From positions 1 to 23,322 of IMG/VR virus record IMGVR_UViG_3300023292_000289: a stretch of DNA of 23,322 bases. One strand, 5' to 3'. This stretch comes from a virus. Positions 2,415 through 17,964 of this stretch are shown piece after piece. The position numbers were made by a program, and so were the translations under genes. Within the stretch, counting starts at the first letter, position 1. The number at the start of each line of letters is the position of its first letter. Under the pieces are notes generated by a model, which saw only the letters and a list, made by a program, of their open reading frames with translations, made no database searches and had not been told where the DNA came from.

Positions 2415-3073
2415 TCAAAAAGCTCTATATTCATTACACAATCTTCGTTTGTTTTACATTTTTGAAAATTATCAGCGTCGTTAAACGTCATAAAATGTTT
2501 TGCGTCTGTATCTCGCATAACGGTTTCTAAAAACTCTAATGAAAGACCTGCTTTTAAAAACCACACCGTCATATCTAAGGTGCTACTAACTCCTGCATCA
2601 AACATTTCTACAAGTTCAGCAGGTTCAATAGGTTCAGGTTTAATTCCCGATATAAACGAAGAAGATGCAGAAGCTCTAGTGGGCCTATGAAATCCTAATA
2701 CACCGTTAATTGTTAAGTCGTTACTTGGGGCTACAGCTACAGCGCAAGCACTCATACATTTTTCATCAACGATTATAGGAATATTTTTAATTGTTTCTCT
2801 AACACTATCAATGACACTTATTACACCGCCACGACTGTTAAAGACAATATATTCAGGATCATATTCATCTACTGCCTGTTGAAGAAGGCGATCGGTATCT
2901 TGATGAAAATACCCATTATAATACAAATATTTGTTATCTTCTGCATCGACCTCTGTTGAGATCTCAAAATTGAAAAAAACAATATGACGGGGTGAATATG
3001 GGGTTGGTGCATAAATTTCTGCGGAAGCTGTTGATGCCGCCAATGCTATTGTTAGTGGTATGAAAAATTTCAT
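2411..3073 (-). CDS. Exported ClpP/crotonase-fold protease-like protein
   Basis: The frame is open up to 3103, but the start is set at the ATG at 3073. It has AAGGAG 9 nt upstream, begins a clear signal peptide (MKFFIPLTIALAASTASA, cleavage after residue 18), and follows the promoter, whose -10 overlaps the longer frame. The mature part has the ClpP-like layout: a strand and RGG turn (VFNSRGG, about 78-83), a nucleophile candidate Ser108 in CMSAC, and a His129 candidate in LGFHRP. These match the periplasmic ClpP-like serine proteases of Gram-negative bacteria. Cys106 and Cys110 flank the Ser and may form a disulfide. Length is 220 residues. A phage protein exported to the periplasm could act on the envelope or block another phage; its target is unknown. 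It is first in an operon with the methyltransferase and the possible acyltransferase. Confidence 0.75.
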   Translation of the reverse strand: MKFFIPLTIALAASTASAEIYAPTPYSPRHIVFFNFEISTEVDAEDNKYLYYNGYFHQDTDRLLQQAVDEYDPEYIVFNSRGGVISVIDSVRETIKNIPIIVDEKCMSACAVAVAPSNDLTINGVLGFHRPTRASASSSFISGIKPEPIEPAELVEMFDAGVSSTLDMTVWFLKAGLSLEFLETVMRDTDAKHFMTFNDADNFQKCKTNEDCVMNIELFE

Positions 3074-3094
3074 TATATAGTTCTCCTTTGATAC

Positions 3095-3131
3095 TATATA
3101 CATAAGGGTTTATTTTTGAATTTAAACCCCC
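3095..3131 (-). promoter_or_regulatory. Early-type promoter P2 with internal inverted repeat
   Basis: GGGTTTAAA (3129-3121) matches the early -35 element of this phage except for one base. The best -10 is TATATA at 3100-3095, 20 bp away, with TATAGTAT just after. A 7 bp inverted repeat GGGTTTA-10 nt-TAAACCC (3106-3129) has the same total length, 24 bp, and the same placement as the one in P1. It overlaps the stop codon of the gene at 3122-3637 and drives the exported protease at 3073. Confidence 0.55.
3106..3129. repeat. Inverted repeat GGGTTTA / TAAACCC in promoter P2
   Basis: 7 bp arms around a 10 nt AT-rich centre, placed on the -35 and spacer as in P1, followed in both by TTAT. The shared geometry suggests a common operator or a combined terminator/promoter. 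Confidence 0.7.
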
Positions 3132-3637
3132 TTAGTGAAAAAATTTCCATTGTCCACCTGTTCCACTAATTCTTTCCATCCGCCGGATTTTAGATTCAAT
3201 TGGATTTGAACCCACCATTTATGTGTACCATCATTTTGGACTGTATGTGTATATTTTAGACCATTATGAAGAATGGGAATAACATTACCCATAGCATTTA
3301 CTCGATATTCATATTCATAAATTGGTTTGTTATTATCATCCAAATAACTCAATATATATTTTATTGGTGTGATGGGAAATATGAGTACATTACCATTATC
3401 CTTATGAGGAATTAATGATGCGTATGGTAATTTTTCGGTGAGATATGCTTTTATAGGATTTTCAGTAAATATATCAGGATTGATAATATCATACAATCTA
3501 AAATCTTGTTGGGTTCTTGGTATTTCATAACAGTTAATACCATCAATCCATTCTATACCTTTACCCTTATTTTTAATCAGTGAATATGGGTTAAAGATAT
3601 TAGCCAACATAGGCATTTCTAGATTATAATCACTCAT
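3122..3637 (-). CDS. 2OG/Fe(II) oxygenase-like protein, possibly degenerate
   Basis: This 171-residue protein resembles its neighbours at 3630-4250 and 4222-5007 in its core. It has an HxD candidate His78-Lys-Asp80 (IPHKDNG) followed by a strand (NVLIFPI), and distal His candidates His124 or His131 (YTHTVQNDGTHKWWVQIQL). The Arg that binds 2-oxoglutarate in this superfamily is not obvious, since a Lys (THKWW) stands near its place. It may be a diverged or inactive member, or bind another cosubstrate. The start ATG overlaps the upstream gene by 8 bp and has GGAAA 8 nt upstream. It is the last gene of the oxygenase string; a promoter begins at its stop codon. Confidence 0.6.
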   Translation of the reverse strand: MSDYNLEMPMLANIFNPYSLIKNKGKGIEWIDGINCYEIPRTQQDFRLYDIINPDIFTENPIKAYLTEKLPYASLIPHKDNGNVLIFPITPIKYILSYLDDNNKPIYEYEYRVNAMGNVIPILHNGLKYTHTVQNDGTHKWWVQIQLNLKSGGWKELVEQVDNGNFFTKGV

Positions 3638-4250
3638 TAAACATATTTCCGCTATTATAAAGATCTACTACATCTTCAAATTCCCAATCTTCATTTCCAA
3701 AATAAATTCTGAACGAGAGCATTTTTCTTTCGCGTTTATCTAAGACCGCATGAGGGTGTTTCGTGTTTAATATCGTCGGACATCTATACGTGTGTTTATA
3801 AATTACATTATAATCATATGGAACGTCATCCTCATATGGTCTGGTGTAAAAATCAGAACCAATCTTATCCATTCCTTCTTCAATATTATCCGTAAAAACA
3901 ATATCATAATCATTAGGTTCAATAGGATATATGACTACAGCATTGCGGCCGGGCGCGTTGTCTATATGGGGACGCATCCATTTACCCTCATGTTTAACCG
4001 TGAGATATGGATCTATAGTCGTCTCGCCTTCAACAAAATCTCTGTTTATATGAGATATTCCATCAAAGATTCTTTTGTCGCGGACCCTATACCACGTCTG
4101 ACCGTCCCACGATCTCTGATCTTGGGAAAGCAATTCAGCACGTAACGACCAAAGTTCTTCTTTGGGTGGTAACAGATCCACAAATTCAGGAACTTCAATT
4201 AGATATTTATTTACTATTTGATTATCTAAAATCATGGTCATACAACACAT
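3630..4250 (-). CDS. Predicted 2OG/Fe(II)-dependent oxygenase (Asp-hydroxylase-like)
   Basis: The core reads MRPHIDNAPGRNAVVIYPI, giving HxD as His95-Ile-Asp97 followed by the conserved strand. Further on, ILNTKHPHAVLDKRERKMLSFRIYFG provides the distal His (165 or 167) and an Arg (173 or 175) for 2-oxoglutarate. This is the layout of the aspartyl/asparaginyl beta-hydroxylase-like branch of the double-stranded beta-helix oxygenases. The substrate is unknown. Several Met codons crowd the N-terminus (MCCMTM), so the true start could be 4250, 4241 or 4235; no clear ribosome binding site decides. It overlaps both neighbours, consistent with joint translation. Numbering is from 4250. Confidence 0.7.
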   Translation of the reverse strand: MCCMTMILDNQIVNKYLIEVPEFVDLLPPKEELWSLRAELLSQDQRSWDGQTWYRVRDKRIFDGISHINRDFVEGETTIDPYLTVKHEGKWMRPHIDNAPGRNAVVIYPIEPNDYDIVFTDNIEEGMDKIGSDFYTRPYEDDVPYDYNVIYKHTYRCPTILNTKHPHAVLDKRERKMLSFRIYFGNEDWEFEDVVDLYNSGNMFNE

Positions 4251-5007
4251 GATCTGGAAAGCGTTTAATACTTCTATCTAAAATAGCGTTATGCTTTTCT
4301 ACATCCAATATTCCTGATATGATGATTTGACACCTATCTCTCATTTTAAAACCTTCATCAGCACCGTGTTCATATACAGAACCATCATAGACAAATGCAT
4401 CGGTTTCCTCTGGTAATACTGGGTATATTTTAGTGGCACCACTGTCCTTTGTCATAAAGAAAACTTCCTTTTCAGGCTCAGTAACTCGACTCCACCTTAT
4501 TCTGTAACACGACGGAGACTGTTTTCTAAGAATCGGGGTCGCGCTAAAAGGTTCATCGTAATGAGGAATAGTTTCTTTCGGGGGTGCGACGAATGCAAGT
4601 TGTCGTATATGAGTGAATGGTAATTTTTCAATATATTCTTTAACGTGGGGTAATTCATAGTCTACCCAATCCCACCAATCACCATTCCCGTATGGATGAG
4701 TGAAGAAGTTTTGTTTTAAAAATAAAACATTACCAGCACCAAAGCCACAGTGAAATTTCGCATTAGGAAAACGCTTATCTAATGCATCGCCATACAATAA
4801 ATCGTGTACATGATCTGTATCTACTTCGAGTTTTGGTAGATCTAGAGGAGTCCAAACAATACCTTTATGACCTTTATATTCCTCATTTATTTGAAGATCG
4901 TTATATGTAGGTCTATCATCTTTAGGTGCTAAATTGGAATAACCTCTTATGGGTGTACCATCATCATTGAAATCTAATTTATGTTTTTCTATTCTATGTC
5001 TTAACAT
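4222..5007 (-). CDS. Predicted 2OG/Fe(II)-dependent oxygenase (Asp-hydroxylase-like)
   Basis: The start is placed at the ATG at 5007 rather than the longer frame at 5028, because AAGGA lies 5 nt before it and it falls just after the upstream stop codon. The 261-residue protein has a long N-terminal part without recognisable motif. A C-terminal oxygenase core follows: LAFVAPPKETIPHYDEPF gives His149-Tyr-Asp151, and VYEHGADEGFKMRDRCQIIISG gives His214 and Arg223 or Arg225. The arrangement fits the Asp/Asn beta-hydroxylase-like family. The N-terminal 130 residues (Trp-rich around 111-116) may bind the substrate. The substrate is unknown; the gene is in the middle of six oxygenase-type genes. Confidence 0.75.
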   Translation of the reverse strand: MLRHRIEKHKLDFNDDGTPIRGYSNLAPKDDRPTYNDLQINEEYKGHKGIVWTPLDLPKLEVDTDHVHDLLYGDALDKRFPNAKFHCGFGAGNVLFLKQNFFTHPYGNGDWWDWVDYELPHVKEYIEKLPFTHIRQLAFVAPPKETIPHYDEPFSATPILRKQSPSCYRIRWSRVTEPEKEVFFMTKDSGATKIYPVLPEETDAFVYDGSVYEHGADEGFKMRDRCQIIISGILDVEKHNAILDRSIKRFPDHVLYDHDFR

Positions 5008-5015
5008 TGTATTCC

Positions 5016-5594
5016 TTACCATAACCACACTACGAATGAATATCTGGTACCTTTAGTAACAGGCATAACTTTGTGTGGATATAAAAAATTAGAAGGGAAC
5101 ATTATTATTTCCCCGGCTTTTGGTTTTATGTACGTGTCTTCCCAGAATTTTAATTCCCCTCCCTCGTAATTATCATTTAACATGCACAATGCTGTTAAAA
5201 TAGGGATGCCGCGTTTTGTCCCATCAAACTGGTTTCTAACATGGTCACAATGCGTGTCCATACCAGATCCGGTTGGGTACTTAATATAATGTGCTTGACT
5301 ATTTCCAGTTAAATACGAGAACCACGGGAGATCTGCCAAGAAATCTGTGACGTATTCTTCACCAACTTTTTTAATTTTTTCTTGGATGAATTTAGATACA
5401 TCATGATCTTCCGGTAATCTAGCATCATAATATGCGATCTCGGGATTTTCTGTTACACATATATTTTGGGAGGGGCTATCATATGGATATTCTCTCCAAA
5501 CATTTTCAAAAGCTAAGTCTGCAATGATTTCAGAGCATTGATCCGATGGGATTAGTCGCTGTTTGAGTAAATATGCTTCTACATCGCGCTTCAT
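5016..5594 (-). CDS. 2OG/Fe(II) oxygenase, prolyl-4-hydroxylase type
   Basis: This is the most canonical member of the oxygenase string (192 residues). The metal ligands are His115-Cys-Asp117 (MDTHCDHV) and His174 (FLYPHKVMPV), and Arg184 (GTRYSFVVWLW) is the 2-oxoglutarate-binding residue. The segments MLNDNYEGGELKF and KPKAGEIIMFPSN between them are typical of the P4Hc/2OG-FeII_Oxy family. Phage members of this family are common in marine T4-like phages, where the substrate is generally not known. It starts in an ATGA overlap with the TauD-like gene upstream. The protein ends two residues after the last core strand, so it is a minimal single-domain enzyme. Confidence 0.85.
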   Translation of the reverse strand: MKRDVEAYLLKQRLIPSDQCSEIIADLAFENVWREYPYDSPSQNICVTENPEIAYYDARLPEDHDVSKFIQEKIKKVGEEYVTDFLADLPWFSYLTGNSQAHYIKYPTGSGMDTHCDHVRNQFDGTKRGIPILTALCMLNDNYEGGELKFWEDTYIKPKAGEIIMFPSNFLYPHKVMPVTKGTRYSFVVWLW

Positions 5595-6379
5595 GATATG
5601 TTACTATAATCGCTCGCGATGCGCCAAAGAAGTCTGTTTTTATCAAGAACCGGGGTTCGTCTATGTAGAGTAGTAAATTGGTCCATGAATAACAAATCTC
5701 CTTTTTTAAATATATGATGATATTGATATTTTGATTTGAAAATAATTTTCTTAAGTTTCTCGATCATTTCAACATGATCAATAACGGTTTTACCATGCCA
5801 TGCTTTTGTGATAAAATGATATGGAAAATAGAAATAATGATCTCCAGTATGCGGATGAACACCTACAAGAGGTCTAATACTACCTTTATTTTGACTCATG
5901 AATTCCAGCTCAGGATCGTCATCTTCTAAGTGATACATTGTGTTATTTTGAAATTTTAATCGGATTTTAATGTCGCACCAATAATCTCGTTCTTCAGCAG
6001 GGAGATCGTAAAATGGATCTGACGTCTGGCAGACACTTAATGTAGTATTAATATCCTCTTCAACGCAATATAGACCGATAAGAATTTTATCTATATTGTG
6101 TCGAGAGTTCCCATTACTGTGCCAACCAAGTTCAGTGTCACCGAACATACCAATTTTCTCGCCGTCTACACGTTTACCCGTTACAAGAAATATTTCTGGA
6201 TATTCTTTAGGATTCATGAATAAACCAGGGGCTTCACATTCACCAAATCGCTTACATAAATCGATAAATTTTCTTTCATCAAGATCTTGCTCATTATATA
6301 CGACATAACCCGTCGACTGTATAACGGCTGCAATATGTTCTAAATGGGGTTTATTGTAATCAAATAGCTGCGAGGTCAT
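5591..6379 (-). CDS. TauD/TfdA-family dioxygenase-like protein with HxN in place of HxD
   Basis: The 262-residue protein matches TauD-type oxygenases along its length: an N-terminal GYVVYNEQDL...F.DLCKRFGE segment, the metal site region GWHSNGNSRH (His87-Ser-Asn89), RPLVGVHPHTGDHYFYFP, and the C-terminal DLLFMDQFTTLHRRTP with distal His239. Arg253 (LLWRIASDY) is the likely 2-oxoglutarate ligand. The carboxylate normally found two residues after the first His is Asn here, from an AAT codon, which may weaken or change iron chemistry. It overlaps the upstream oxygenase gene by 20 bp and the next one by ATGA. The substrate is unknown. Confidence 0.8.
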   Translation of the reverse strand: MTSQLFDYNKPHLEHIAAVIQSTGYVVYNEQDLDERKFIDLCKRFGECEAPGLFMNPKEYPEIFLVTGKRVDGEKIGMFGDTELGWHSNGNSRHNIDKILIGLYCVEEDINTTLSVCQTSDPFYDLPAEERDYWCDIKIRLKFQNNTMYHLEDDDPELEFMSQNKGSIRPLVGVHPHTGDHYFYFPYHFITKAWHGKTVIDHVEMIEKLKKIIFKSKYQYHHIFKKGDLLFMDQFTTLHRRTPVLDKNRLLWRIASDYSNIS

Positions 6380-6980
6380 CTTGTCCGTCCAAACTAAACA
6401 TTAGAGCAATTCTAGGTTTATCACTATTATTATAAACTGCATGAGCAAATCCTGTGTTCAAGAAATACGCTTTACCTGCTTCAAGATGAGTATCAAACAA
6501 ATGATTTCTTACTTTGAACGCATTTTTAACTTCAAAGTTTGTATAAATTGGTACAATAATTCTTACTGCATATGTTGGGTCATAATCAATATGCATAGGT
6601 ATTTCTGTTTGAGGCGCCAATTTTGTTATTCTTACGCGCATGACGGGCGCGAGAAACTGATCTGTGATTTCTTGAAAATAACTATCAATGAAATCTTCAG
6701 TCGGTTTTTTATAAAGCGCTTCTTCTTTTCTTCGAATTCGTTCTTTAATATTATCAGTGAATTCTAAAGGGGGTCCGTCTAATTCAGTTAAGTTAATCTG
6801 TTCAAAATTATCATATACGTTCTTCACCAATTCTGCGTGGTTTTCACATAGGGCAGGATTAGCAGTCATGACATCAATAAATTTATTAGAAATTTCATCA
6901 CACGCTTTTTGTAATTTTGGTAAATCTATCTTAATTTGATCTAGACTTTCATATGCCGGTAATTGATATTTTCTTCTCAT
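6360..6980 (-). CDS. Predicted 2OG/Fe(II)-dependent oxygenase (Asp/Asn hydroxylase-like)
   Basis: The frame is open to 7007, but the ATG at 6980 has GGAGG 4 nt upstream and an ATGA overlap with the aminotransferase stop, so I start there (206 residues). The core MRVRITKLAPQTEIPMHIDY gives His130-Ile-Asp132. AYFLNTGFAHAVYN gives distal His180, and KPRIALMF gives Arg190. This fits the aspartyl/asparaginyl beta-hydroxylase (cupin-like) branch. The first 100 residues are helical with no motif. It is the first oxygenase gene after the desaturase and aminotransferase genes in the same transcription unit. Confidence 0.78.
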   Translation of the reverse strand: MRRKYQLPAYESLDQIKIDLPKLQKACDEISNKFIDVMTANPALCENHAELVKNVYDNFEQINLTELDGPPLEFTDNIKERIRRKEEALYKKPTEDFIDSYFQEITDQFLAPVMRVRITKLAPQTEIPMHIDYDPTYAVRIIVPIYTNFEVKNAFKVRNHLFDTHLEAGKAYFLNTGFAHAVYNNSDKPRIALMFSLDGQDDLAAI

Positions 6981-7822
6981 AATTCCTCCAATAATGGGGT
7001 TATGCACAATCGTGCTTTAGTTCCATTTCTTCGTCTTCTTATATAATACTTATCCTCTGATGTAGCAATAATACAAGAATCACTAGGTTCTAAATCATAT
7101 TTTTGACAAACTAATAATTGATATGGTATTAAAAGTTCGTGTAAATAATCGGGCGGATATCGCTCCATAATTTCATCAATAAGTTCTGTAGTTGCATAAT
7201 TCCAGCAACCAAATGACTGGGTATGTTTTAATGTAGCGTGGGGTTTCTTTGAATATACAACTCCAGCTCTTTGACCGATAAGACCCCACCCCTTACTAAA
7301 ACTAAACATGATTTGTTCGGTATTTTTAGGAATGCGCGTTTGACGTATTTCTGTGGAACCAACGTAAGCGCAATCTAGAATAACAGGACACCCGATAGCA
7401 TCAATAGCATCTATATCTTCATCAGAAAGAAAGTTACCATCTATAGCAGACGGATTACTTATATAAAGAACTTTATTAGACCATAAGTGATCGAGAGTTA
7501 CTTTATACCCAACGCCACCGACCATATGTGGCCATTCGTAATCTCCTATCAAAGATTGCCATGGTCTGGTTTCTGATAATTTCCACAGATTTATAGCTTC
7601 AGTAGCTCCGGCTGTTATATAAGAATATTCAAAGTCCGCGGTATCTACAATATCACTTATCCATTTTCTGTGGTGAAATAGAACATATGCTAAATAATCT
7701 TCGATCTGTTTTGGTCTAGGATACGTATCGCCGAGAGATATTGTATCTAGGGTCTTTTTTATACTATCACTCGTTGGGGCAAACACATATTGATTATTTT
7801 TTAACGAAGAACTTTTCAGCAA
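6977..7822 (-). CDS. PLP-dependent aminotransferase-like protein (short)
   Basis: The fold-type I aminotransferase signature is clear: ITAGATEAINLW (PLP phosphate region), YISNPSAIDG (the NP.N.TG motif with Asn123), VILDCAYVGS (Asp150 and Tyr153), and MFSFSKGWGLIGQRAGVVY, where Lys177 is the Schiff-base lysine. With 281 residues it is about 100 shorter than typical class I/II enzymes, mostly at the C-terminal domain. The start is a TTG at 7822, chosen because GGAGG lies 5 nt upstream; it overlaps the desaturase gene by 29 bp. The gene is coupled by ATGA to the first oxygenase. It may make or consume an amino acid or amine that feeds the oxygenases, which is an inference. Confidence 0.75.
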   Translation of the reverse strand: MLKSSSLKNNQYVFAPTSDSIKKTLDTISLGDTYPRPKQIEDYLAYVLFHHRKWISDIVDTADFEYSYITAGATEAINLWKLSETRPWQSLIGDYEWPHMVGGVGYKVTLDHLWSNKVLYISNPSAIDGNFLSDEDIDAIDAIGCPVILDCAYVGSTEIRQTRIPKNTEQIMFSFSKGWGLIGQRAGVVYSKKPHATLKHTQSFGCWNYATTELIDEIMERYPPDYLHELLIPYQLLVCQKYDLEPSDSCIIATSEDKYYIRRRRNGTKARLCITPLLEEL

Positions 7823-8432
7823 GGTAACCTCCAATGTCGTATTTTCCTAATCTAATACGTCTATAATTATCATGATGATTTTTGTGATATCCCTCGCCCG
7901 CGACAATTAGATTCAAGATTGGGACATTGCGTACTTCAGTTGGATCTACATGACACGCTGTGTTGATTAAACCAAAACCTATTTTTGCAACGATGAATGG
8001 TATTAAAACAAAACCTAAAAAGAGATATGGACTAATAAGAAATGTTACTATCCATATGACAGCAGCTATCTTAAACCAATGTTTATGACAAAACACAAGT
8101 CGTGGATTTTTATATAAATCTCGAGCATATTTTAAGGGTATTTTTGGAACTGACCAAGTAGTGGAAAGTACTTTCCAAAAGCCGACATGAGCTGGGGCAT
8201 GAGGATCTTTTTCTGTTCCAGAGTAAGCATGGTGCATTCTGTGTGATGCGATCCAACCAATAGGCGATCTGATCACAGCAACCATTAACATAAAGAGTCC
8301 TACGTTTTCAAACCAAACTGGAACATCAAACTGTTTATGACAATAGTGTCTATGTAATAGAATTGATGCTCCAAAATGTGAAATAATCTCAGACCATATT
8401 ATACCTAATATTATTGTAATTAAAAGAGTCAT
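7794..8432 (-). CDS. Membrane fatty acid desaturase (acyl desaturase family)
   Basis: All three histidine boxes of the integral-membrane acyl desaturases are present: HRHYCH (27-32), HRMHH (64-68) and HKNHH (183-187). Hydrophobic segments lie at about 3-22, 43-60 and 122-152. At 212 residues it is shorter than usual, but it keeps the core from box 1 to box 3. The enzyme would introduce a double bond into host acyl chains using O2 and a diiron centre. Desaturases occur in several marine T4-like phages and are thought to change membrane fluidity during infection. A late-type GATAAATA motif lies about 20 bp before its ATG, so it heads the accessory unit that continues into the aminotransferase and oxygenase genes. 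Confidence 0.9.
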   Translation of the reverse strand: MTLLITIILGIIWSEIISHFGASILLHRHYCHKQFDVPVWFENVGLFMLMVAVIRSPIGWIASHRMHHAYSGTEKDPHAPAHVGFWKVLSTTWSVPKIPLKYARDLYKNPRLVFCHKHWFKIAAVIWIVTFLISPYLFLGFVLIPFIVAKIGFGLINTACHVDPTEVRNVPILNLIVAGEGYHKNHHDNYRRIRLGKYDIGGYLAEKFFVKK

Positions 8433-8986: not shown

Positions 8987-9238
8987 TCACATTCCCAACG
9001 CTTCTTTGTAAAGTTCAAGAATGGCTTCGGTTTCAGAAACTGACTGAGGATCTTTCTTCCGAAGTGCTACCAACATGCGGATAATCTTAGTATCATACCC
9101 ACGAGATTTGGCCTCGGCCATCACCTCCTTCTCTTGGTCCAAGAGATCTTTTCGCTCAGATTCAAGTCGTTCATAACGTTCTATAAAACTGCGAAGTTCT
9201 CCAGCGGTTACTCGATATTGACTTTCTGTTTCACTCAT
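8987..9238 (-). CDS. GapR-like DNA-binding protein (DUF2312)
   Basis: The 83-residue protein is a near full-length match in layout to the alphaproteobacterial GapR/DUF2312 family. An N-terminal SQYRVTAGELRSFIERYERLE is followed by a charged coiled coil with KEVMAEAKSRGYDTKIIRMLVALRKKD, and it ends EAILELYKEALGM. GapR is a nucleoid-associated protein that clamps overtwisted, AT-rich DNA ahead of replication and transcription and helps topoisomerases. A phage copy could organise phage DNA, relieve positive supercoils during replication, or displace the host protein. It lies 3 bp after the gene at 9242-9427 and downstream of the tmRNA, so it is probably on the same transcript as the tmRNA precursor. 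Confidence 0.88.
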   Translation of the reverse strand: MSETESQYRVTAGELRSFIERYERLESERKDLLDQEKEVMAEAKSRGYDTKIIRMLVALRKKDPQSVSETEAILELYKEALGM

Positions 9239-9241
9239 AAT

Positions 9242-9427
9242 CTAATTCCATCCAATTTGTTTAGACGCAGCAGTATGTTCCACTGGCCCTGGGTATTTCT
9301 TTTTAATTTCTTCCTGGAACATTTTATATTGTTCAGGGTCAGAAAACATAGGATCTCCCATAGGAGCAAACCTCTGTTTATTTAACAACACCAAATAAGT
9401 GGCGTTTTCAAACCATTCTTTATCCAT
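9242..9427 (-). CDS. Hypothetical small protein (61 aa)
   Basis: The ATG at 9427 has CGGAG 7 nt upstream and begins about 20 bp after the last predicted stem of the tmRNA. The protein (MDKEWFENATYLVLLNKQRF...) is rich in Phe, Tyr, Met and Pro, with no membrane segment and no cysteine. The fragment GDPMFSDPEQYKMFQEEIKKKYPG looks like a helix preceded by a Pro-rich turn. No family is recognised. Its place between tmRNA and GapR-like genes, with tight spacing, makes it a real gene in the same unit. Confidence 0.6.
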   Translation of the reverse strand: MDKEWFENATYLVLLNKQRFAPMGDPMFSDPEQYKMFQEEIKKKYPGPVEHTAASKQIGWN

Positions 9428-9489
9428 AATATATCTCCGTGAATTTGTGAGCCCGTTCTGTTGCTAGGTGGAACTCATACCCCATAGAA

Positions 9490-9534
9490 TCACGCTGCTA
9501 GGCGTAGTTCCATAGGTGCTTTGTTATCGTTTGC
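9490..9534 (-). other. tmRNA proteolysis-tag reading frame
   Basis: Resume codon GCA at 9534-9532, then ANDNKAPMELRLAA and TGA at 9492-9490. The ANDN start is shared with many alphaproteobacterial tags, and the LAA end is the ClpX/ClpA recognition type. The basic insertion MELR before LAA is unusual to my knowledge. Confidence 0.88.
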
Positions 9535-9618
9535 ACTTACGTGTTTTGAGCCGATATGGTGTGCTCATCCAGTAATCTCCACTTCATCCCCAACGCCTGT
9601 CGATCCTATTTCGACCCC

Positions 9619-9743
9619 AGCAAAAATATTATTTTACTTCAACAGCGTAGCTCAGGCAGCATAGCCGTATCTATTATGTATCCCGCTAGGGACCTCTTTT
9701 CCTCATCCATCTTCTACTCTTGGAAGAGAGGTAATAATATTCA
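9619..9743 (-). other. tmRNA intervening segment joining the two pieces
   Basis: This 125 nt segment lies between the encoded CCA and the first base of the coding piece and must be cut out to give mature two-piece tmRNA. Near its two ends AATATTATT (9740-9732) and AATAATATT (about 9633-9625) are exact reverse complements, so the segment can extend the acceptor stem as a long helix. Inside, GTCCC-TAGC-GGGAT forms a small hairpin. It contains no ORF or tRNA that I can support. Confidence 0.75.
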
Positions 9744-9862
9744 TGGTGGAGTCGCTGGGTACCGCCCCCAGGTCCAGAACATCTTTGTGTCGTTTCATCG
9801 ACTACATATTCCCGTTTAAGGGAAACTTATCATTTCTAAATCCTAACTTTAGAGTAATACTC

Positions 9863-9879
9863 TATTTATATTATTTATA
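9863..9879 (-). promoter_or_regulatory. Tandem late promoter motifs (two TATAAATA)
   Basis: TATAAATA occurs twice, at 9879-9872 and 9870-9863, just upstream of the tmRNA acceptor piece and partly overlapping the -10 of the early-type promoter. Both copies equal the T4 late consensus exactly. They would allow tmRNA transcription late in infection. In such AT-rich DNA one copy could be chance; two in this position are less likely to be. Confidence 0.55.
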
Positions 9880-9910
9880 TAATATCACACTCTAAGTGGA
9901 TTGTAAACCC
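9879..9910 (-). promoter_or_regulatory. Early-type promoter P3 (tmRNA unit)
   Basis: GGGTTTACA (9910-9902), then exactly 17 bp, then TATTAT (9884-9879), with TGTGA before the -10. The expected start near 9872 is about 45 nt before the tmRNA acceptor piece. It begins 4 bp after the stop codon of the gene at 9915-10055. Confidence 0.75.
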
Positions 9911-9914
9911 CCAT

Positions 9915-10055
9915 TTACCAAATATAGGGTTTATCTTTTTGGTGGACTATTTCATATCCGCGATCTTCCCAACCTTTTGCTTCATCCTCAAATTCAACAT
10001 ATCCAGCTACATATTCACCAGCTTGATCGGTACCAATTACCCAATATTTTTTCAT
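9915..10055 (-). CDS. Hypothetical small protein (46 aa)
   Basis: The ATG at 10055 overlaps the stop of the upstream gene as ATGA, and the frame ends with TAA at 9915-9917 immediately before the tmRNA promoter. The product begins MKKYWVIGTDQAGEYVAGYV and ends HQKDKPYIW. It looks like a compact alpha/beta peptide with many aromatic and acidic residues. The tight coupling at both ends supports a real gene although it is only 46 codons. Family and function are unknown. Confidence 0.65.
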   Translation of the reverse strand: MKKYWVIGTDQAGEYVAGYVEFEDEAKGWEDRGYEIVHQKDKPYIW

Positions 10056-15225: not shown

Positions 15226-16053
15226 TTATTCCTTAAAATTTACTTTTTGTTCTATTTCTCGAGAATCCATGGAGTAATCGCGTCTATACGCGTTATTGGC
15301 TAGGATTACCTCATTTAGTACTGTAAACTCATCTTTTGCAAATTTAGCAAAAGCTTTGCTATCTTTTGGAAAACATGAGCCGCCAAATCCCCTTTTATTG
15401 TCAAAACCTGGGGCTTGTGTGTGACTATATCCAACCCTAGGGTCAGATCCTATCGCATTTATTACCTTATTAAAGTTTCCAGTACTTCTATTATCTATAA
15501 CGTCTTTAAATTGGTTAAACCATAGTGTTTTTGATGCGAGATACGTGTTAATTCCATACTTCACAAAACTTGCTTCTTCTGCACTCATATAAAATACTTC
15601 ACACGGTCTACATCTAGAATGATTCTGATATAGATCAAACACCTTAACACAATATCCATAATCTACTCCACCAAGAATATGAAATATAGGATTAATAAAA
15701 TCCTCAATTGCATTTCGTTCTGTTAAAAATTCCGGATTATAAACTACTCTAAACGATTTTGACGATAACGATTTTGCGTCGTCTGGTGGTATTGTTGATT
15801 TAATCACAATGTTTGTCATTATAGTAGTTGATACTAATTTTTGGGTTATATCAAGAACAATACTAGAATCCACTGATCCATCAGCACTCATAGGAGTAGG
15901 TACACACACAAATATGAAATCTTGATCTGCTTTAATATCTTCTAAATCTGTTCCATATTTTGGGTCTATAATATCAATATTATTACCTCGAACATCTAGC
16001 GCATATTCTAGGGATTTTCCAACAAATCCGTGACCTACAATTGTTATATTCAT
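15226..16053 (-). CDS. UDP-glucose/GDP-mannose dehydrogenase-family protein lacking C-terminal domain
   Basis: The start is set at the ATG at 16053, which forms ATGA with the deaminase stop and begins directly with the Rossmann strand (MNITIVGHGFVG). The longer frame starts at 16071. The 275-residue protein has the NAD site GHGFVG (7-12), VCVPTP (49-54), KSTIPP (85-90), YNPEFLTERNAIEDF, EEASFVKYGIN with Lys165, and GFGGSCFPKD with the catalytic Cys227. Family members oxidise a nucleotide sugar twice to the uronic acid. Usual length is 390-450, and here the third, UDP-binding domain is missing: the protein stops soon after the catalytic loop region. It may use an unusual substrate or a partner. 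The context (asparagine synthetase, cytidylyltransferase-like protein) hints at sugar or surface modification. Confidence 0.85.
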   Translation of the reverse strand: MNITIVGHGFVGKSLEYALDVRGNNIDIIDPKYGTDLEDIKADQDFIFVCVPTPMSADGSVDSSIVLDITQKLVSTTIMTNIVIKSTIPPDDAKSLSSKSFRVVYNPEFLTERNAIEDFINPIFHILGGVDYGYCVKVFDLYQNHSRCRPCEVFYMSAEEASFVKYGINTYLASKTLWFNQFKDVIDNRSTGNFNKVINAIGSDPRVGYSHTQAPGFDNKRGFGGSCFPKDSKAFAKFAKDEFTVLNEVILANNAYRRDYSMDSREIEQKVNFKE

Positions 16054-16574
16054 TCTACTAAATATTCCCATTTAACGCCGGACTCTTCAAACATCATAGT
16101 TGTGAACTCCCAGGATTCTCTCCATCGTTCAAAATCAACAGTAGGTTTTGGAAGAACTACTCTTTTAATTCCTGCTTGAATTATACCCTTTGCACATTCT
16201 GAACAAACCGGTAATCCGTAGACATATAAAGTTGCTCCATTCAAAGAAAGACCGTACCAAGATGCATTATATATGGCATTCATTTCTGCGTGAACAACCA
16301 ATTTATATTTCGTCGGTCTATCATTCAATCTTTCTTCAGAGTCTGCTATACCTCGGGGAAATCCATTATAACCCATACTTAAAACTTGACCCGTTTTTGA
16401 TACTGCAACTGAGCCAATTTTACTAGAAGGATCTTTAGACCACTTCGAGACTTCTCTTGCAAGTCCCATATATTTTTGGTCCCACGTCATGATTTTATCG
16501 GGTAAAATTAAATCGCACATACATTCTTTATGTAATCCACACGCACATCCACCGCCTTGATCATATTTAGCCAT
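16050..16574 (-). CDS. dCMP deaminase
   Basis: The zinc-dependent deaminase signature is complete: HAEMNAIYNA with His95 and Glu97, and LPVCSECAKGIIQAGI with Cys124 and Cys127. SSKIGSVAVSKTGQVLSMGYNGFPRG upstream and 174 residues total match the dCMP deaminase branch (T4 cd type). It makes dUMP from dCMP and so feeds ThyX. An N-terminal extension, MAKYDQGGGCACGLHKECMCD, has four Cys (10, 12, 18, 20) and His15 and could hold a second, structural zinc. It overlaps the asparagine synthetase gene by 8 bp and the dehydrogenase gene by ATGA. Confidence 0.92.
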   Translation of the reverse strand: MAKYDQGGGCACGLHKECMCDLILPDKIMTWDQKYMGLAREVSKWSKDPSSKIGSVAVSKTGQVLSMGYNGFPRGIADSEERLNDRPTKYKLVVHAEMNAIYNASWYGLSLNGATLYVYGLPVCSECAKGIIQAGIKRVVLPKPTVDFERWRESWEFTTMMFEESGVKWEYLVE

Positions 16575-17964
16575 TATACATTTCCTTCCAAATTCGATTA
16601 TTAGTCAATCTTTGTTCCATTGGGAATTTTTTAATTCCTGGGATCTTAAGAGGTTTCTTGGCCCGCAAAAGAATATCTTGTGGGACATAGGATTCAAATA
16701 CACTTTTAAGCATTTCTTTATCACCCATTCTATTTTCATATGGTACTCGAAGAGCATATTTAATAACCTTTGGTGATAAAAATGGTGCTCTTAATTCCAC
16801 CGTTGATCTCATCATAGTTCGATCAAGTTTTGGTAGATGATAGTATGGGAGCTCTAAAAATATATCTGAATGTTGAGAATCATATTCTTTTGCTCTTCGA
16901 TATCCGCCGAATAACTCATCAGCACCATCACCAGTCATAACAGCATAGAAGCCTAGTTTTTTAAGTTCTTCGGCCATTGCTATTTGAGGTTTCACTGAAC
17001 CTAGGTCAACTGGGGTTTGGTGGATTTTAATTGCTTTTTCATCTGACACTTTATCAAATGTAACGATTAAAAGATCCTTAGTAACAAGTTCCGCATAATG
17101 AGATTCATTATTCTCAGCATGTATAGCTGTTATAGGAATATCTTCATCACCATATTTCCATTCTTCTGAATGAATTTCTTTTATAAGATTATATATGATC
17201 GTTGAGTCAATACCACCAGAAAGGAGCACTGCTACTTCTCGTTCTCCCGTAAGTCTATTTTTAACGGATTCTTTTAATATATCTTCTAGAGAGTCATTTT
17301 CAGAAAAATCTACGCGCTCCCAATCCCAATATTTTGTGATTACACCATCAAGATAATAATGACCTGGCGGGATTTGTTTAATTTCGTTCCATGGGGATTC
17401 TGGTCCTGGATTATATCCCCATTTTAATACGTTCGAATGAAATAATTCATTTCTTGTGACGCCCTTAAGATTTTTAAGTACATCAATTTCAGATGCAACC
17501 ACATTCAAATCTGTTCTATAATAAACCGGTTTTTGGGATAGGTAATCGGTACAAGCAAATAACTTATCTTTGAGAATAGTTGCAAACGACCAAAAACCGT
17601 CATAGTTATGCATGTAATTAAGATCTATTTTTTGATTTCCGTAATTATGAAAATGAAAATCTCTAACAAAGAATTCAGCATCGGATCTAACTTTCCATTC
17701 TAAGAAGTCATCGTTGAGGAATTTCCAATTAAATATCTCCCCAACAAAGACATTTGGTATACCTTCTGCACCATGATAGATCGGTTGTATTGCTACCTCT
17801 GGGTCTAAATTAGTGAACGGAAGACTGACATGACCAAACTGAGCATCACCATATCTACCTGAACCCGTAAATTCTGGAAGGCCCCTGTAATCCATTTCGC
17901 GGACAACACCCGCTATATTTCTATGATTAAGACCGGGTTGTTTCCAAGCTATAAATCCACACAT
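16567..17964 (-). CDS. asnB: Glutamine-hydrolysing asparagine synthetase (AsnB-like)
   Basis: The N-terminal nucleophile is Cys2 (MCGFIAW), followed by a class II glutamine amidotransferase domain (GHVSLPF, VFVGEIFNW, SDAEFFV, DGFWSFATI) up to about residue 200. The synthetase domain has the ATP PP-loop LLSGGIDST (249-254 for SGGIDS) and TGDGADELFGGY (344-355). At 465 residues it is shorter than E. coli AsnB (554) but keeps both active sites. It would convert aspartate to asparagine, or amidate a related carboxylate such as a sugar acid; phage-borne asnB genes occur in marine T4-like phages. It lies 1 bp after the TS-fold gene and overlaps the deaminase gene, inside the nucleotide cluster. 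Confidence 0.92.
   Translation of the reverse strand: MCGFIAWKQPGLNHRNIAGVVREMDYRGLPEFTGSGRYGDAQFGHVSLPFTNLDPEVAIQPIYHGAEGIPNVFVGEIFNWKFLNDDFLEWKVRSDAEFFVRDFHFHNYGNQKIDLNYMHNYDGFWSFATILKDKLFACTDYLSQKPVYYRTDLNVVASEIDVLKNLKGVTRNELFHSNVLKWGYNPGPESPWNEIKQIPPGHYYLDGVITKYWDWERVDFSENDSLEDILKESVKNRLTGEREVAVLLSGGIDSTIIYNLIKEIHSEEWKYGDEDIPITAIHAENNESHYAELVTKDLLIVTFDKVSDEKAIKIHQTPVDLGSVKPQIAMAEELKKLGFYAVMTGDGADELFGGYRRAKEYDSQHSDIFLELPYYHLPKLDRTMMRSTVELRAPFLSPKVIKYALRVPYENRMGDKEMLKSVFESYVPQDILLRAKKPLKIPGIKKFPMEQRLTNNRIWKEMYNG

Follow-up and report, generated by a model that had tools for sequence, protein, structure and literature searches.

A complete two-piece tmRNA gene of the alphaproteobacterial type in a phage contig, with an enlarged IVS that in related phages often appears to hold a small gene

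The window analysed here is a whole IMG/VR virus record of 23,322 bp (IMGVR_UViG_3300023292_000289), and cmscan at the gathering threshold confirmed on its minus strand a circularly permuted tmRNA gene that is complete and of alpha type. The alpha_tmRNA family RF01849 matched positions 9861-9446 over its full model (1-355) with 115.6 bits (E 3e-31; gathering cut-off 50 bits), the tmRNA_permuted family RF04321 matched 9806-9490 with 103.3 bits (E 1.7e-19; cut-off 47), and these were the sole Rfam families at E<=10 within 9400-9960. A first-pass annotation, made from the letters only, had proposed a phage-encoded permuted tmRNA of this type at 9448-9828 and had named the Infernal search with RF01849 as its check beforehand; the match spans both pieces and bears the proposal out, with coordinates that were correct to within about 35 nt and an offset at the 5' side. 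The features of the locus are listed below, where IVS stands for the segment between the encoded CCA and the coding piece.

9879-9907, minus strand: sigma70-like promoter TTTACA-N17-TATTAT with TG before the -10 (10/12 consensus score)
9863-9879, minus strand: two TATAAATA (T4-late-like) boxes, at 9872-9879 and 9863-9870 (motif scan)
9446-9861, minus strand: entire permuted tmRNA gene (ssrA) of alpha type, as matched by the covariance model (RF01849, 115.6 bits)
9744-9861, minus strand: acceptor piece, first in the gene, with a 5' hairpin, T-arm TGGGGGCGGTACCCA and encoded CCA (covariance-model alignment, sequence)
9748-9754, minus strand: 3' strand of the acceptor stem, CGACTCC, with G3-U70 (sequence, pairing script)
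9619-9743, minus strand: IVS of 125 nt, predicted to be absent from the mature RNA (sequence), longer than all 112 bacterial IVSs (maximum 82)
9733-9741, minus strand: 5' strand of the stem closing the IVS, AATATTATT (fold)
9639-9710, minus strand: 23-codon ORF within the IVS, MDEEKRSLAGYIIDTAMLPELRC, judged not to be a gene (no Shine-Dalgarno sequence; codon score)
9625-9633, minus strand: 3' strand of the stem closing the IVS, AATAATATT (fold)
9446-9618, minus strand: coding (mRNA-like) piece (covariance-model alignment)
9612-9618, minus strand: 5' strand of the acceptor stem, GGGGTCG (sequence, pairing script)
9490-9534, minus strand: tag frame ANDNKAPMELRLAA followed by TGA, resume codon GCA (sequence; covariance-model alignment to the conserved TGCAAACGAtAAC block)

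The order of the pieces is that of a permuted gene, the acceptor piece with its CCA preceding a coding piece that begins with GGGGTCG at 9618. The two strands of the acceptor stem pair at 7/7 positions, including G3-U70, the alanine identity pair, and ACCA at 9747-9744 follows directly on the 3' strand, placing the CCA end at 9744. The tag is read as GCA AAC GAT AAC AAA GCA CCT ATG GAA CTA CGC CTA GCA GCG TGA, and its ANDN start, AA end and stop codon are those of an alpha-type permuted tmRNA. The T-loop, the D-loop TCGAC block and the resume context are likewise intact, and some non-standard pairs were flagged by the covariance model. Both the acceptor pairing over 7 bp and the stop-terminated tag frame, on which the first-pass annotation had relied, can be read directly in the sequence and recur in many other viral contigs. 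ARAGORN, the second check it had named, gave no tmRNA match in the window; because this program misses 121 of the 255 viral permuted tmRNA loci detected by other means, its silence is not counted as evidence against the gene. A blastn search with the tmRNA gene against 50,697 phage records returned no match, and the gene is therefore divergent from those of isolates.

The same annotation had expected two RNAs of about 85 and 170 nt, which is reasonable for the mature pieces, and had overlooked the 125 nt of the precursor that lie between them (9743-9619). Their length was compared by applying one strict T-arm/CCA pattern to viral contigs and bacterial genomes alike. Bacterial IVSs were 28 nt long at the median and 82 nt at most (n=112), against a viral median of 67 nt with 27 IVSs of at least 100 nt (n=108; Mann-Whitney p 3e-16, kinship ignored), the contigs being fragments and the samples pattern-limited and redundant. 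With further viral patterns, one of which selects for a long closing stem, there were 255 unique viral IVSs with a median of 86 and a maximum of 304 nt. The closing stem of the window's IVS has 10 bp, which places the gene in a group of phage tmRNAs defined here by an IVS longer than the sampled bacterial range and a closing stem of about 10 bp. Eight cultured and mostly unrelated phages all exceeded the sampled bacterial maximum, namely vB_EliS-L02 (88 nt), Cp1R7A-A1 (93), RcRudolph, MD18 and DSS3_MAL1 (98 each), DSS3P8 (106), RcXuper (109) and Melnitz (142), their hosts being Erythrobacter, Rhodobacter (two), the Roseobacter group (three), Mesorhizobium and OM43; a call of 410 nt for Phosso was excluded, since it may have the wrong partner. 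The length in the window is therefore typical of phages and untypical of the sampled bacteria. The idea that marine AT-rich hosts characteristically have long IVSs found no support in two such alphaproteobacterial genomes, one of them from the Pelagibacteraceae, whose IVSs measure 6 and 4 nt.

What such a segment may contain is clearest in the relatives. Of the 126 viral IVSs that reach 90 nt or more, 50 contain an ATG-initiated ORF of at least 20 codons preceded by a Shine-Dalgarno sequence, whereas 100 dinucleotide shuffles gave 5.0 on average and never more than 9. Several ORF families recur in divergent tmRNAs, for example ...WMFKAYIVWSICADIFLLGGIAYLIFF and MDDKDKIIDIK...LASTNASGKMILWAVLLLFFTFMIMEVFGFNQYFL, and substitutions in the IVS ORFs fall mostly on third codon positions (2309, versus 1460 at first and 893 at second positions), one family showing 155 synonymous and 26 nonsynonymous codon differences; in both counts the pairs are non-independent. 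The 62-aa IVS protein of locus L111 is 70% identical to the product of gene 85 in phage Melnitz, which is annotated there as a gene of its own immediately upstream of the tmRNA; this supports both a real gene and the idea that cargo enters and leaves the slot. In its own IVS, Melnitz carries a different ORF from that of L111, unannotated and preceded by a Shine-Dalgarno sequence, MFKWLSKTRLVVITRDYF... / MFKWLSKTRLVVITRDYFRERN..., inside the annotated SsrA gene (about 1534-1675 of locus L333, MZ577097.1). No family match was obtained in PHROG for the ten micro-proteins tested. According to ARAGORN, two further loci (L512 and L523) have an intact tRNA-Arg(TCT) within the tmRNA IVS. The ribosome-binding site lies inside the closing helix in 17 of 53 ORF-bearing IVSs, the commonest position of the stop is one base before the coding piece, and loci bearing cargo still score as tmRNAs. 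To judge from these sequences, the IVS of many related phage tmRNAs would be a slot for micro-ORFs, a tRNA and apparently structured RNAs.

For the window itself, a hidden micro-protein was rejected. The 23-codon ORF lacks a Shine-Dalgarno sequence and has a codon log-likelihood ratio of -0.19, at the 0.6 percentile of true coding sequence of the same phage (mean 0.13, sd 0.11), so that it scores like off-frame sequence. A known riboswitch or ribozyme was also rejected, with no Rfam match for the IVS up to E 10, and ARAGORN reported no tRNA in it, L512 and L523 being the only loci listed with one. The window's own IVS is thus most likely non-coding. Its interior folds no better than shuffles (z -0.39), and no relative was found for it outside its own phage.

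Two accounts of this non-coding segment deserve similar attention. It could be a neutral insertion without cargo, of which only the closing stem matters for folding and processing, as might be expected from an ORF that does not look coding, an interior devoid of significant structure, and the lack of any Rfam match or relative; we regard this as a serious possibility that still falls short of probable. Phage genomes are compact, and yet the unrelated cultured phages all keep an IVS above the sampled bacterial range, which speaks against neutrality, as do two properties of the IVSs without ORFs: taken as a set they have a slight excess of stability over shuffles (mean z -0.48, p 5e-4), and C(GAAA)G, a motif that fits GNRA tetraloops, occurs in 12 of 78 of them where 1.7 would be expected. 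The segment could instead be a functional non-coding RNA set free by tmRNA processing. Its length resembles that of other phage IVSs without ORFs, one family of which (three members) has stems with three covarying pairs, and the tRNAs of L512 and L523 offer a parallel; the missing conserved relative and significant fold weigh on the other side, and we consider such an RNA quite conceivable and somewhat more doubtful than not. A broader proposal, to which we would give slightly less than an even chance, is that the phage permuted tmRNA serves as a cargo platform with a helix-closed slot for swapped genes, the IVS of the window being non-coding cargo. Under the platform proposal the tmRNA promoter would drive all cargo, and tmRNA processing would possibly release it or switch it on.

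As such, the gene belongs to an already known type, because two-piece tmRNAs of phages have been reported before: 402 tmRNA-bearing phage genomes yielded 133 unique tmRNA structures, of which 53 were two-piece and 50 of these 53 came from marine or aquatic phages (PMC9004378), and the current tmRNA database holds 79 unique phage sequences (PMC11915505). Among its closest known counterparts is the gene of phage Melnitz (MZ577097), which shares with the window a phage-encoded alpha-type permuted tmRNA matching RF01849 and RF04321, an upstream promoter-like sequence with TATAAATA, and a long IVS, but differs in its tag (ANDNYVPVDYALAA versus ANDNKAPMELRLAA in the window), in its unannotated micro-ORF (MFKWLSKTRLVVITRDYF...) where the window has none, and in a glutamine riboswitch after the coding piece that the window lacks. 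Melnitz infects OM43, classed as gammaproteobacterial, and nevertheless has the alpha-type two-piece form (PMC9004378), so that the type alone is no proof of an alphaproteobacterial host. The other seven cultured phages, all of alphaproteobacteria (DSS3P8, MD18, DSS3_MAL1, RcXuper, RcRudolph, vB_EliS-L02 and Cp1R7A-A1), also have a permuted, phage-borne tmRNA with a long IVS of 88-109 nt and no evident protein gene, although their IVS sequences are unrelated to that of the window and most of their tmRNAs are unannotated in the records. The public records of several cultured alphaproteobacterial phages at loci L599, L601, L602, L604 and L605 leave the permuted tmRNA unannotated. Bacterial alpha-type tmRNAs (RF01849) have in common with the window the gene order, the acceptor stem, the T-arm, the tag frame and a full-model score, and differ in a far shorter IVS (median 28, maximum 82 nt in 112 genes, versus 125 nt), the window's gene being moreover phage-borne. 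A gene nested in a tmRNA IVS has been described before in GCA-2688965 sp002688965.2, whose permuted tmRNA contains a tRNA-Ala and was called a unique feature (PMC11915505); that genome is a nominally archaeal one from a metagenome, whereas the phage cases involve tRNA-Arg or protein genes. In the open-licence literature on nested genes in the tmRNA IVS we found only this single tRNA case and no protein genes, and the enlarged phage IVS, in relatives often with a hidden small gene, seems to be previously undescribed.

The promoter-like sequence of the window and its TATAAATA boxes sit in the non-coding gap upstream of the tmRNA. Because promoter scores in the upstream region as a whole are not enriched over shuffles, the call leans on its position. 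Across the sample, TATAAATA precedes 189 of 250 viral tmRNAs and none of 109 bacterial ones, at a median of 76 nt before the CCA end (quartiles 74-76). In 131 of the 189, a TTGACA is found about 17 nt further upstream, compared with 1.8% of other TATAAATA sites. The T4 late promoter first considered as the driver of the phage tmRNAs was revised on account of this -35 box, and the site is read as a sigma70-type promoter, a strong one whose -10, TATAAATA, resembles that of T4 late promoters. In most viral contigs (e.g., L333, L328, and L111) the composite TTGACA-N17-TATAAATA, in which perfect -35 boxes are fused to a T4-late-like -10, keeps a constant spacing to the tmRNA.

The surroundings of the gene are those of a phage. 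It is flanked by genes for a UvsX-like recombinase, a DnaB-like helicase, a DNA polymerase and thymidylate synthases, with a cell-wall hydrolase and a GapR-like protein also nearby. A 69.7-kb viral contig (IMGVR_UViG_3300035698_004752), which shares 19,551 bp with the window at 99.99%, carries the same tmRNA and adds a ribonucleotide reductase, an endolysin and an exonuclease. No integrase was seen among the scanned proteins, a subset of all. SmpB was not found in the 69.7-kb contig by a search in which 10 of 14 control genomes score, and that of the host would therefore be required. The GapR-like DNA-binding protein (8987-9238, minus strand) lies downstream of the tmRNA and has relatives in 48 viral loci. 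The first-pass annotation had seen in the tmRNA strong evidence for the class of the host, a claim that Melnitz weakens; the GapR-like neighbour is consistent with an alphaproteobacterial host. Just downstream of the tmRNA and the GapR-like gene there is a run of metabolic genes (5016-8432, minus strand) for a 2OG-Fe(II) oxygenase and for TauD-like, Asp/Arg hydroxylase-like, aminotransferase-like and fatty acid desaturase-like proteins, and UDP-glucose dehydrogenase-like, deoxycytidylate deaminase-like and asparagine synthase-like genes are found inside the replication region (15226-17964, minus strand). Elsewhere in the set, locus L207 encodes at 2833-4332 (plus strand) a 499-aa protein that matches a PHROG 'RNA-binding protein' family and Pfam DUF7788/DUF2828.

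We consider it about 85% probable that this is a complete phage two-piece tmRNA of the alphaproteobacterial type, belonging to a viral group with enlarged IVSs and working as follows. A single precursor would be transcribed from the sigma70-like promoter just upstream; by analogy with bacterial two-piece tmRNAs, RNase P would cut at G9618 and tRNA 3' processing would expose the CCA at 9744, so that the 125-nt IVS would be excised and the two pieces would be held together by the acceptor and internal stems. The alanyl-tRNA synthetase of the host (AlaRS) could charge the RNA, for which the G3-U70 pair is present, and host SmpB and EF-Tu would bring it to stalled ribosomes, where addition of the tag ANDNKAPMELRLAA would free the ribosomes and send the stalled products to host proteases. 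The phage might benefit if ribosomes on broken mRNAs are recycled in the course of infection or if stalled products are removed, and the putative role in ribosome recycling or protein redirection suggested by the first-pass annotation is plausible. We infer these steps, from processing and charging to tagging and benefit, from the sequence and from what is known of two-piece tmRNAs.

That the gene is instead a decaying passenger from a host, its function lost, appears improbable. The gene is sporadic: among the 50 closest DnaB-relatives searched, many of which are short fragments, just 2 reach the RF01849 cut-off, the 69.7-kb sister record being one of these. The non-standard pairs and the unrelated IVS would also fit decay. 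Against it stand the intact acceptor stem, G3-U70, CCA, T-loop, D-loop TCGAC, resume context and tag, a promoter-like sequence that is sensibly placed, and an all-viral clade with conserved parts: in the tmRNA tree the nearest relatives are all viral (L007, L328, L075, and L085; moderate support), and the contents of their IVSs differ, L328 and L075 having related micro-ORFs and the other two no evident protein gene. An ordinary host gene on a contig mis-called viral would suit the alphaproteobacterial type of the tmRNA and is scarcely credible given the flanking phage replication and nucleotide genes, the second and longer viral contig with the same tmRNA, and closest tmRNAs that are viral and not bacterial.

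Few bacterial RNAs have been studied as much as tmRNA, yet the versions found in phages have received little attention and often go unannotated. About half of the viral permuted loci in our set escape ARAGORN, and surveys that rely on this program are therefore likely to underestimate the number of phage tmRNAs. Melnitz, DSS3P8, MD18 and RcXuper are cultured phages and are open to direct tests. If the IVS is indeed a gene slot, a precursor segment regarded as discarded would yield proteins and RNAs during infection, hidden from gene callers by its location inside an RNA gene.
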